From an uncultured Clostridia bacterium (GTDB lineage: Bacteria; Bacillota; Clostridia; Christensenellales; Borkfalkiaceae), in NCBI GenBank assembly GCA_947588985.1, contig CANQBG010000002.1:1-64000 (forward strand): a DNA stretch of 64,000 bases, in the 5' to 3' direction. A program made the translations under genes and the position numbers. Below, one piece after another: positions 1 to 48,088 of this stretch. The notes beneath the pieces were generated by a model. It was not told the origin of the DNA. It made no database searches and was given only the letters and a program-made list of their open reading frames with translations. Every line of letters starts with the position of its first letter. Position 1 is the first letter of the stretch.

Positions 1-95
1 CCCCCATTTTGTCAAGCATTTGTGCGAACATTTTGAAAATTTCTTCCCACTTGTGAACAATTTTTTTCTTCCCCCCCCCTCCCACGGCATGAAAA
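1..95 (-). repeat. Truncated second copy of the pilin-gene promoter/upstream region (copy of about 1535-1630)
   Basis: cccccattttgtcaagcatttgtgcgaacattttgaaaatttcttcccacttgtgaacaattttttt is repeated at about 1535-1602; includes the -35 complement tgtcaa at 10-15 and the end of a C-run at the window edge. Confidence 0.85.
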
Positions 96-178: not shown

Positions 179-370
179 ATGCCGATCACGCCCAAGCAAA
201 TGGTCCGGTTCCTGAAAGAAAACGGGTTTGAGGAGGTCAGCCAAAAGGGCTCTCATCTCAAGATGAAAAACCCAAAGACAGGGAAGCAAACGGAAATCCC
301 AATGCACGCAAAGGATCTCCCGCCCGGAACGGAGAAGGCGATCCTGAAACAGGCGGGGTTGGAGAAATAA
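179..370 (+). CDS. hicA: HicA-type mRNA interferase toxin
   Basis: 63 aa, MPITPKQMVRFLKENGFEEVSQKGSHLKMKNP...TEIPMHAKDLPPGTEKAILKQAGL matches the HicA dsRBD-like pattern with the GSH motif; followed by hicB. Confidence 0.88.
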   Translation: MPITPKQMVRFLKENGFEEVSQKGSHLKMKNPKTGKQTEIPMHAKDLPPGTEKAILKQAGLEK

Positions 371-378
371 TTCCCGCC

Positions 379-897
379 ATGCACAATCTATTTGGTAGGA
401 GGCCAAAGAGAATGGAACCCAAAGGAAACGAAAAGAAACGAGTCTATCCCGCCATTTTTCATAAGGAGGACGACGGGAGATATTCGGTCGTATTCCCCGA
501 TTTAGGCTGCGCCACTTGCGGAGATACGCTCGAAGAGGCATTTCAAATGGCAAAGGAGGCCCTCGCGCTGTGGCTCGACGATTGCGAGCCGCAAGCTCCC
601 ACCCCGCTCGAACAGGTGGAGCTCCAAGGGGACGACCGCGCGATGCTCGTGGAGGCCGATCGCGACGAGGATATCGTCTACTTCAAGCATTCCGAAGTCC
701 CGCACGTCATCGAATCGGGGCTCGAACGGAAGGGCTTCACGAAATATCAGGTAGCGCAGATCTTGGGCGTGGACCGAGGCTACATCACGCGCATCGCCAA
801 CGGCCAGCGCGTTCCCTCCGTGGATATGGCCAAGCGCATCGGGACGCTGCTCGATTTCGATTGGCGGGTATTTTACCCGGACGGCGTCGGCACTTGA
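379..897 (+). CDS. hicB: HicB-type antitoxin with C-terminal HTH
   Basis: YPAIFHKEDDGRYSVVFPDLGCATCGDTLEEAFQMAKEALALWLDD HicB fold; C-terminal XRE-like helix-turn-helix (KYQVAQILGVDRGYITRIANGQRVPS). Confidence 0.88.
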   Translation: MHNLFGRRPKRMEPKGNEKKRVYPAIFHKEDDGRYSVVFPDLGCATCGDTLEEAFQMAKEALALWLDDCEPQAPTPLEQVELQGDDRAMLVEADRDEDIVYFKHSEVPHVIESGLERKGFTKYQVAQILGVDRGYITRIANGQRVPSVDMAKRIGTLLDFDWRVFYPDGVGT

Positions 898-966: not shown

Positions 967-1494
967 TTAGCTTGCGGAGGGCTTTGTTGTAGTGACCTCA
1001 ACACCCTTTGCGGTAATCGTTACGTAGTAATTGCCCACTTTATACTCGACTTTACCGCTACCGACTTCGTAAGTATCCTCTTTTTCCGTAGCTGAAATTT
1101 TAATACCAACCCAATCACCTGAACCCGTTGTCTTAATGTCCTTTACTGTTATAAAATCTGCAAATATAGGGGCATCATCGGTTGTATCATTCTTATCGAT
1201 TTTAGCATTGGCAAGAGTTTCTGTCGGCCCTGTTCCTGTTGCGGGAATCTGTCTTGCACTAGAAGAAGAAGAAGAAGAATCCATCTGCTTATAACAATAC
1301 TCATCGAAGTTTCCCTGATAGAGCGCAAGGATCTCGGTTTTCAAGTTGGCAGCTTCTTGTTCGGCGGCGGACTTGTTGGCGTTACCGATCACGGTGGTGA
1401 AGGTGGGGATGAGGACGGCGGCCAAGATCGCGATGACCGCGATGACGATGACCAGTTCGACGAGCGTAAAGCCCTTCTTGTTTTGCTTTTTCAT
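967..1494 (-). CDS. Type IV pilin-like (prepilin N-terminal) protein
   Basis: MKKQNKKGFTLVELVIVIAVIAILAAVLIPTFTTVI prepilin peptidase site and hydrophobic helix; in-frame TCT (Ser) microsatellite SSSSSSS. Confidence 0.88.
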   Translation of the reverse strand: MKKQNKKGFTLVELVIVIAVIAILAAVLIPTFTTVIGNANKSAAEQEAANLKTEILALYQGNFDEYCYKQMDSSSSSSSARQIPATGTGPTETLANAKIDKNDTTDDAPIFADFITVKDIKTTGSGDWVGIKISATEKEDTYEVGSGKVEYKVGNYYVTITAKGVEVTTTKPSAS

Positions 1495-1520
1495 AACATT
1501 CTCCTTAAGAATTTTTCTCT

Positions 1521-1549
1521 ATGATAGCACCCCCCCCCCATTTTGTCAA
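1521..1549 (-). promoter_or_regulatory. Promoter of the pilin-like gene with G10 tract in the spacer
   Basis: Minus strand: TTGACA-AAAT-GGGGGGGGGG-TGC-TATCAT; 17-bp spacer, extended -10 TGC. Confidence 0.8.
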
Positions 1550-1619
1550 GCATTTGTGCGAACATTTTGAAAATTTCTTCCCACTTGTGAACAATTTTTT
1601 TCTCTCCTCCCTCCCACGG

Positions 1620-1655
1620 CATGAAAAAATCCCGCAGACATCTGCGGGATGGGAG
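1620..1655. terminator. Terminator hairpin, copy of 921-955
   Basis: cccacggcatgaaaaaatcccgcagacatctgcgggat identical to the copy at 911-949. Confidence 0.75.
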
Positions 1656-45924: not shown

Positions 45925-47973
45925 TTATGCCCCCTGTTTTTCAAGCATGATGATAATTTCCTGTGTCGGCTCATACATTCCCATCGACACATTCCCGCCG
46001 AAATACATATGATAGGATTCCATTAAATAAAAGGTATTGTCTTGCAAAGCTGTATTCTTCAGAGAAATTCCATCGACAAGTTCCAATCCCGAGCACACGC
46101 TGAGCGCGTCAAACGCATTTCTTACCTGTTCTTTCCAATCCTTATCGACCCACTTGTAGACATTATTCGTTTTTGTGCTATCACGGGCTTCATTATAAAG
46201 CGGCGTGGTATCTTTATCCGAAATTCCATACCAATAGATATTTCCATAATAAATGTTCCAATACCAAAGTACGATTTCCGGTTCGGAATAATGATAAGCC
46301 GAAGCATTGCCGTCCACAAAGTTCGACCCTTGATTAGAGCTTTCCCAAACTCCGTTTTGGATATTTAAGATGTCGCTCCAAGCAATGTCATCCATGGTAT
46401 CCGCATGATATCGTTTTTTCAGCCAATCCGCAAGAGTTTGCCCTTCCGGCTTAGAAAGTTGTTCCATATAGGCATTATAACTTGCTTGACTCCACTCCCT
46501 ATCGGTAGTGCCCAGAACTTCATGGGCATAGGTCAGCGCGGTAACGCTACTCGTCATGACAGGATAATAATGTTCGTCGAATCCGTAGATTTCCTTGATT
46601 TTTTCGAGGATCCCTTCCGTGTTTCCGCTCTCGACTGCCGTTTTCAGCATGGTAATCGCGCCCAATACATTCATATCAAACGTCGTTTTGACGTTGACAG
46701 CCGCATACAAATTCTTTCCGCCGCCGAACTTCACTTTATTATTTACCCCATCTCCCGGCATCGTGGAAGAGGGCCTCTTTAATTCGAATTGCAAGGAAAC
46801 CCTATCCGTTAAATAGTTCTCGTCGTCGGGCAACTGAAATTGCCAACTCAAATCGTATTTATCTGTTCCGGTTTGACTGGACTCGGTTTCCACCACCAAT
46901 TTGCCGTATTCATAGGAGTGGCCGGCCACCGTGCCGGTGTAGAGGCGGTTGTTTTTGTAATAATACCCGTTCGCAACGCCGCCCGCCGTTCCGCCAAGCG
47001 GCTCGAAGCCCTCCGGCGCCTTTGCATTGCAATAGATGCAATAATACCCTTCGTCCTTGCGATATTCAAAAGTACAGGCAAGGCCCGTCGCCGGGGCGCC
47101 GTTGTCGGGGCAGGCAGAGTCCGTGCACCGCCTATTATGCGTGCCGTTGTTTTGAGGCGTATATTCAAAGACGTGTCTGTGCGTGCTGACGGGCTGGTCG
47201 TAGTCGCAATAGACGCAGCGGCCCGCGGCATCGAAGGTGCAGTCCTCCTGGGTGGGCTGATTGCAGATCTTGCAGACCTTGGTGTGCGTGCCGTCCCCGT
47301 TGGCGGTATACGACCCCACCCCATAGGCATGCGCGCAGGGATCGGTGTCGCTGTTCGTCTCCTTCTTCCAGCCGCACTTACTGCATGCGCCGTCCGCCCC
47401 GTCGGTATCGTGCGGGGCGTCCATGACGATGACCTCATGGCATTTGCCGCAGATGACGAGGTGGAACTCCGAGCCGCCCGTCTCGAGCGCGATGGGGCGA
47501 TAGGTGTAGCCGTAGCCCACGAGGTGCAGGCAGGCCTCCGTGGTGGGCGCGAGGCTGAACCACGTTAAGGCGGCCATCTCATATTTTGCCGCGAGGTCGG
47601 CGGGATAGACGATGGAGACGGGATTTTTCCCGTTCATCTCCACGAGGACCACGCGGTTGACGGACTGCTCCCCGCTCTTCTGGATCCAATAGAAGGCATA
47701 CCCGGAGGAAGCCGTATCGACGGGGGCGTTGAGGCCCGCGCTCCGCAGGATGGTTTCCGCACCGGCAAGGCCGTCGGGGACGTTCCCTGCGACCTCTTCG
47801 GCCGTGAGGGCCACATTCATGTTGCGCACCGTCTGCTGGTCTGCCGACATGTTCGCCTTTTGGATCACGCTCGTGAACGTCGGGATGAGCACGGCCGCCA
47901 AAATCGCAATGACCGCGATCACGATGACGAGCTCAACGAGCGTGAATCCGCGGCGCCGTTTGCTTTGTTTCAT
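45925..47973 (-). CDS. Large (682 aa) type IV pilin-like protein with Cys/His-rich module
   Basis: MKQSKRRRGFTLVELVIVIAVIAILAAVLIPTFTSVI; repeated CxxC motifs (ICGKCH, CSKCGW, CKICN, CVYCD, CIYCN). Confidence 0.9.
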   Translation of the reverse strand: MKQSKRRRGFTLVELVIVIAVIAILAAVLIPTFTSVIQKANMSADQQTVRNMNVALTAEEVAGNVPDGLAGAETILRSAGLNAPVDTASSGYAFYWIQKSGEQSVNRVVLVEMNGKNPVSIVYPADLAAKYEMAALTWFSLAPTTEACLHLVGYGYTYRPIALETGGSEFHLVICGKCHEVIVMDAPHDTDGADGACSKCGWKKETNSDTDPCAHAYGVGSYTANGDGTHTKVCKICNQPTQEDCTFDAAGRCVYCDYDQPVSTHRHVFEYTPQNNGTHNRRCTDSACPDNGAPATGLACTFEYRKDEGYYCIYCNAKAPEGFEPLGGTAGGVANGYYYKNNRLYTGTVAGHSYEYGKLVVETESSQTGTDKYDLSWQFQLPDDENYLTDRVSLQFELKRPSSTMPGDGVNNKVKFGGGKNLYAAVNVKTTFDMNVLGAITMLKTAVESGNTEGILEKIKEIYGFDEHYYPVMTSSVTALTYAHEVLGTTDREWSQASYNAYMEQLSKPEGQTLADWLKKRYHADTMDDIAWSDILNIQNGVWESSNQGSNFVDGNASAYHYSEPEIVLWYWNIYYGNIYWYGISDKDTTPLYNEARDSTKTNNVYKWVDKDWKEQVRNAFDALSVCSGLELVDGISLKNTALQDNTFYLMESYHMYFGGNVSMGMYEPTQEIIIMLEKQGA

Positions 47974-48060: not shown

Positions 48061-48088
48061 ATTATAGCACCCCCCCCCGGTCTGTCAA
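48061..48088 (-). promoter_or_regulatory. Promoter of the large pilin-like gene with G9 tract in spacer
   Basis: Minus strand: TTGACA-GACC-GGGGGGGGG-TGC-TATAAT, spacer 16. Confidence 0.85.

Follow-up and report, generated by a model that had tools for sequence, protein, structure and literature searches.

Near the left end of a 64-kb stretch of DNA from an uncultured Clostridia bacterium (the window), a run of ten G residues lies between the -35 and -10 hexamers in front of a short pilin-like gene. Slippage-tuned promoters are mostly known from pathogens, in which a handful of loci per species are affected. The question raised by this locus is whether its homopolymer makes the promoter phase-variable, or whether it is a fixed element, a chance run or an artefact of sequencing.

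The focal promoter and its surroundings

Positions 1549 to 1521 of the minus strand read TTGACAAAATGGGGGGGGGGTGCTATCAT, which resolves into TTGACA-AAAT-G10-TGC-TATCAT with a spacer of 17 nt (Table 1). As in promoters of the porA and tp0126 type, a homopolymer of at least about eight bases is located wholly between a recognisable -35 and a recognisable -10, and the spacer, 17 bp as assembled, is at or close to a length at which a single base makes a difference. The promoter matches at 11 of 12 positions in a promoter scan, the joint top score of the region, and no other G/C homopolymer of the window is as long as its tract, C10 on the plus strand. The sequence-only reading had described the same layout from the -35 to the -10, but had placed the ribosome-binding site about 20 nt away; it is found 14 nt below the -10, followed by the pilin ATG at 1494.

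Table 1. Features of the focal promoter region and of the second poly-G promoter of the window
Feature	Positions	Strand	Remarks
-35 hexamer, TTGACA	1544–1549	-	6/6 consensus
G10 homopolymer in the spacer (C10 on the plus strand)	1530–1539	-	proposed slippage tract
TGC-TATCAT	1521–1529	-	extended -10 (TGn) at 1529–1527; -10 hexamer at 1526–1521, 5/6
Ribosome-binding site, AAGGAG	1501–1506	-	direct reading
Prepilin-like protein, 175 aa	967–1494	-	PF07963, 35.7 bits (cut-off 21.2); N-methylation motif GFTLVELVIVIAVIAILAAVLIPTF
Conserved upstream region that extends into the focal promoter	1535–1611	-	further copies at 1–77 (96%) and on C34
Second copy of the upstream region	1–77	-	truncated within its G tract, where the contig starts
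Terminator-like hairpin after dnaJ	1629–1650	-	lies between the grpE-dnaK-dnaJ genes and the pilin unit
Second poly-G promoter, TTGACA-GACC-G9-TGC-TATAAT	48061–48088	-	G9 at 48070–48078; spacer 16
Prepilin-type surface protein, 682 aa, behind the second promoter	45925–47973	-	PF07963, 33.5 bits

The protein encoded behind the focal promoter has the N-terminal methylation motif G/FTLVE, with a glutamate at position 5 after the cleavage glycine, as in type IV pilins, and its PF07963 match predicts a surface location. Within its gene an in-frame TTC/TCT repeat (1262–1281, minus strand) encodes a run of serines and is a possible length-variable, frame-neutral site. The gene is located downstream of dnaK and dnaJ, which are themselves preceded by a grpE-like reading frame; dnaJ was identified from Pfam, while the dnaK and grpE-like frames were assigned by reading their sequences. 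A hairpin identical to the one after dnaJ recurs after the pilin, at 928–952.

Three near-identical short pilins with the same promoter type are present in the genome, one in the window and two on contig C34. At the left end of the window, 51 bp inside the promoter are identical to the start of C34, which carries the next pilin. Most likely, therefore, three pilin units follow one another, every one behind a poly-G promoter and the first two separated by a hicAB-like pair, the join itself being deduced from this overlap. In the window, the pair (179–897, plus strand) has a copy of the pilin promoter region on either side. It comprises a HicA-type toxin (PF07927, 72.5 bits) and a HicB-like antitoxin with a helix-turn-helix (PF15919, PF01381), and has its own TTGACA-N17-TATCAT promoter at 121–149. 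A run of nine G is also present on the minus strand at 71–79, upstream of the truncated promoter copy and outside any spacer; the other two copies of the region have a shorter run or a broken one.

Machinery for pilus assembly is present in the genome, at a type IV pilus locus on contig C31 that contains two T2SSF/PilC domains beside three other prepilins, the latter without poly-G promoters. The focal pilin gene is not adjacent to it. The description of the pilin as an orphan thus holds as far as its place outside the C31 locus is concerned, but the family of prepilins behind this type of promoter, to which the protein belongs, has at least seven members.

Poly-G promoters in the genome and the lineage

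When the assembly (1.6 Mb, 83.5% complete) was searched with the pattern TTGACA-N-G6-N-TATNAT, 18 matches were found, against none for the reversed pattern; exact TTGACA and TATNAT were demanded, so that promoters with weaker hexamers are uncounted in these figures. Nine matches are on the forward strand and nine on the reverse strand, and the tract is G9 or G10 in 15 of the 18. The assembly contains 28 runs of nine or more G, 15 of which are inside consensus promoter spacers. Apart from three short pilins, the genes behind these promoters encode several prepilin-type proteins of about 600–970 residues, two lipoproteins of more than 1100 residues (a domain scan of one of them found a Listeria-Bacteroides repeat), two other lipoproteins, one of them collagen-like, and a secreted protein of 276 residues. 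Some of the clustering of the promoter copies is gene duplication. Several of the large prepilin-type genes are preceded by a repeated unit, in which an AT-rich upstream region and the poly-G promoter are followed by a leader of about 300 nt that might have a regulation of its own; the unit is found on contigs C15, C19, C29, C60 and C52 (loci L009–L011, L013, L018 and L289), and contig ends fall within the repeat.

The pattern extends to 80 of 103 genomes of the same genus, with up to 19 matches per genome, while the reversed control is found in 0 of 103. It was found in 7 of the 15 genera sampled in the family (74 of 203 genomes) and in 24 of the 104 sampled in the order (57 of 247 genomes), where the matches cluster in three families and several others have none. 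No genome among the 140 that represent other orders of the class contains it, the sole match besides the own genome being in another member of the order; poly-G promoters are therefore no general by-product. Poly-C at the same place in the spacer is found 14 times, in 11 of the 103 congeners and mostly as C9 (for example in G039, G091 and G099), G being far commoner than C as the spacer homopolymer of the genus. The nearest matches in protein searches are from uncultured Clostridia assemblies of rabbit and sheep gut, at roughly 40–54% identity, which suggests a gut habitat for this bacterium too.

For the genus, the genes behind 147 distinct poly-G promoters were compared with those behind 71 usable ordinary promoters (TTGACA-N17-TATAATA), taking in each case the first gene with a start codon and ribosome-binding site. 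Export was called for both sets by the same rule of thumb (prepilin, lipobox or single N-terminal signal). Exported products are encoded behind 99 of 140 poly-G promoters, against 8 of 71 ordinary ones (Fisher p = 5e-17), and after grouping of related proteins the figures are 74 of 105 against 8 of 71 (p = 1.5e-15). By inspection, many of the remaining genes look membrane-linked, such as those for ABC transporter ATPases with Walker A motifs and for small zinc-ribbon membrane proteins.

Lengths of spacers and tracts

With a search that allowed spacers of 12–23, 81 ordinary consensus promoters were found in the own genome, and their spacers are 16 (4), 17 (71) or 18 (6), with none outside this range. 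Its 15 poly-G promoters have spacers of 16 (4), 17 (2), 19 (3) and 20 (6), a lower share at 17 (Fisher p = 2e-8). The same is seen at the level of the genus, where 155 poly-G promoters from 56 genomes have spacers of 15 (34), 16 (30), 17 (9), 18 (18), 19 (32) and 20 (17), with a few outside these values; the full range is 13–22, and 98 of the 155 are outside 16–18. The trough at 17, below both 16 and 19, is retained in 4998 of 5000 genome bootstraps, and in two other families few of the poly-G promoters have a spacer of 17 (3 of 52 and 3 of 25). Promoters whose hexamers are perfect but whose spacers fall outside the ordinary range are difficult to understand as fixed, but easily understood if gain and loss of G retune the spacing. 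We infer from these lengths that many of the promoters are weak or OFF in the state in which they were assembled. An altered spacing optimum on poly-G DNA could be an alternative account of the depletion. As a specific observation, the depletion of 17-bp spacers in consensus assemblies is new, and it raises the question whether OFF is the common state.

Tract lengths in the genus, read from short-read assemblies in which homopolymers may be off by one or two G, range from 7 to 11, with a mode of 9; elsewhere in the family and order, tracts of 12–18 are occasionally present. Range and mode agree with poly-G switches proven by experiment, the tracts of Treponema pallidum tprL being 7–11 long and mostly 9 (PMC7864442) and those of Campylobacter jejuni mainly G9–G10, a distribution ascribed to opposing insertion and deletion biases (PMC8355987). 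Near-identical copies can differ by a single G: the pilin paralogues have G9 and G10, the sister pilin with G9 thereby having a 16-bp spacer, and the sister-species orthologues L169 and L172 have G8 and G9, with six substitutions in 500 bp. As most close pairs of copies have tracts of equal length, and some genomes are uniform (almost all G8 in G059, all G9 in G056), the comparative excess of tract changes appears modest, and the hypermutation signal is supportive, not strong. Of 121 genomes of the order tested for MutL, 119 have it, the own genome included, and a general loss of mismatch repair was thus rejected as a cause. One of the two genomes without MutL, that of the order relative G259 (family f17, 97% complete), contains the longest spacer tract, G18; this is a single case.

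A probable slippage switch and its alternatives

Phase variation of promoter spacing, driven by slippage, is very probably the best explanation for the focal promoter and its relatives. The G10 tract would be the slippage site that sets the distance between the -35 and -10 of a sigma-A-type promoter. When replication slippage adds or removes one G, the spacer would move to or away from 17 bp, and transcription of the pilin would be turned on, down or off in individual cells. The focal copy as assembled, with G10 and 17 bp, is tuned and presumably ON, while promoters of the same genome with spacers of 19–20 bp are presumably OFF. The focal promoter would be one of about 15 independent switches in the genome, of a type that may be used across the genus and in parts of the order, in front of genes that mostly encode exported proteins, lipoproteins and prepilins among them. 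The sequence-only reading had proposed a phase-variable promoter, and this is favoured by the lineage-wide family, the exported products, the tracts of 7–11, the depletion at 17 bp and the one-G differences. We infer that slippage takes place within the population, affects transcription, gives rise to ON and OFF states and has an adaptive role in the gut.

If, instead, the tract were a fixed structural or binding element, either A-form-like poly-G DNA or the target of a tract-reading regulator, its exact length would be no switch. Such an element would agree with the presence of poly-G in 80 of 103 genomes, often several times in each, against 14 poly-C matches in 11, and with the narrow tract lengths, which in some genomes are uniform; an altered helix geometry could also shift the optimal spacing and help to explain the two spacing classes. 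It is nevertheless an unlikely explanation. The tract has no constant place in the spacer, where it may be anywhere between direct contact with the -35 and direct contact with the -10, and thus fits a binding site poorly, spacers of 13–22 bp are too dispersed for a single optimum, and near-identical copies differ by one G. Poly-C occurs too, and an element consisting of G only was rejected because poly-C spacer promoters, though rarer, are found in 11 of the 103 genomes.

An ordinary constitutive promoter, in which the G run arose by chance in a genome of 60% G+C and has no regulatory role, would be compatible with the optimal 17-bp spacer of the focal promoter as assembled and with the location of about half of the G9 or longer runs of the genome outside promoters. 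It would leave unaccounted for a pattern found in 80 of 103 genomes whose reverse is found in none, the strong bias towards exported proteins and the absence from 140 genomes of other orders; it is strongly disfavoured already, and we give it very little chance of being correct. An artefact of sequencing or assembly, be it two-colour Illumina poly-G or repeat collapse, is brought to mind by the several poly-G promoters at contig ends (C2, C19, C29, C34 and C60). Several of these ends are at exact repeats of 30–77 bp, which explains the assembly breaks. The two-colour artefact was rejected on the balance between strands (9 forward, 9 reverse), on the exact context, the runs ending precisely and continuing into -10, ribosome-binding site and gene, and on recurrence in 80 independent species assemblies, and an artefact of either kind is extremely improbable.

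The switch proposed here shows similarity to that of Neisseria meningitidis porA, where a G homopolymer between the -35 and -10 of a surface protein gene alters the spacing by one-G changes (PMC3899988; PMC7864442) and transcript levels follow the count of G residues in the spacer (PMC3899988). However, the promoters described here have consensus hexamers, number about 15 per genome and extend over a whole genus of gut Clostridia, where they are known from sequence. Treponema pallidum tp0126 also has a poly-G between -35 and -10, and is transcribed best when this gives a 17-nt spacer (PMC7864442). The Treponema products are unrelated spirochaete outer-membrane proteins, while those considered here are lipoproteins and prepilins of a Gram-positive lineage, and not all the Treponema tracts are in the spacer, that of tprL spanning part of the -10. 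In Bifidobacterium breve UCC2003, like the present organism a Gram-positive gut commensal, slippage in a G10–G11 tract controls pili; the switching proven there is by intragenic G tracts, promoter-spacer tracts being mentioned as outside the scope of the study (PMC9187656), and the proven tracts are frameshift switches of sortase pili in an unrelated actinobacterium. Campylobacter jejuni resembles our case in its many G/C tracts per genome, their surface functions and an equilibrium at G9–G10 (PMC8355987), but its tracts are mostly within reading frames and so act on translation, while tracts in promoter spacers would act on transcription.

No report of poly-G promoters in this bacterial group was found in a search limited to openly accessible journal papers, with few subscription journals and no preprints. 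With the mechanism proven elsewhere, this points to a known mechanism on an unusual scale, and it is the scale in uncultured gut Clostridia that appears new. More tentatively, and as a possibility rather than an expectation, independent promoter switches may be spread order-wide in uncultured gut Clostridia, with selection keeping the majority state mistuned and expression confined to a minority. Two designs would then exist: one with a spacer about 1–2 bp too short, turned on by gain of G, and the other with a spacer about 2–3 bp too long, turned on by loss of G. If this is true, each surface protein would be expressed by a minority of cells, leading to combinatorial surface diversity. Poly-G switches look like a standard means of surface-protein control in a large group of uncultured gut commensals and, if they are, strain-level surface diversity would reside partly in one-base differences between G tracts, which are invisible to comparisons of gene content.
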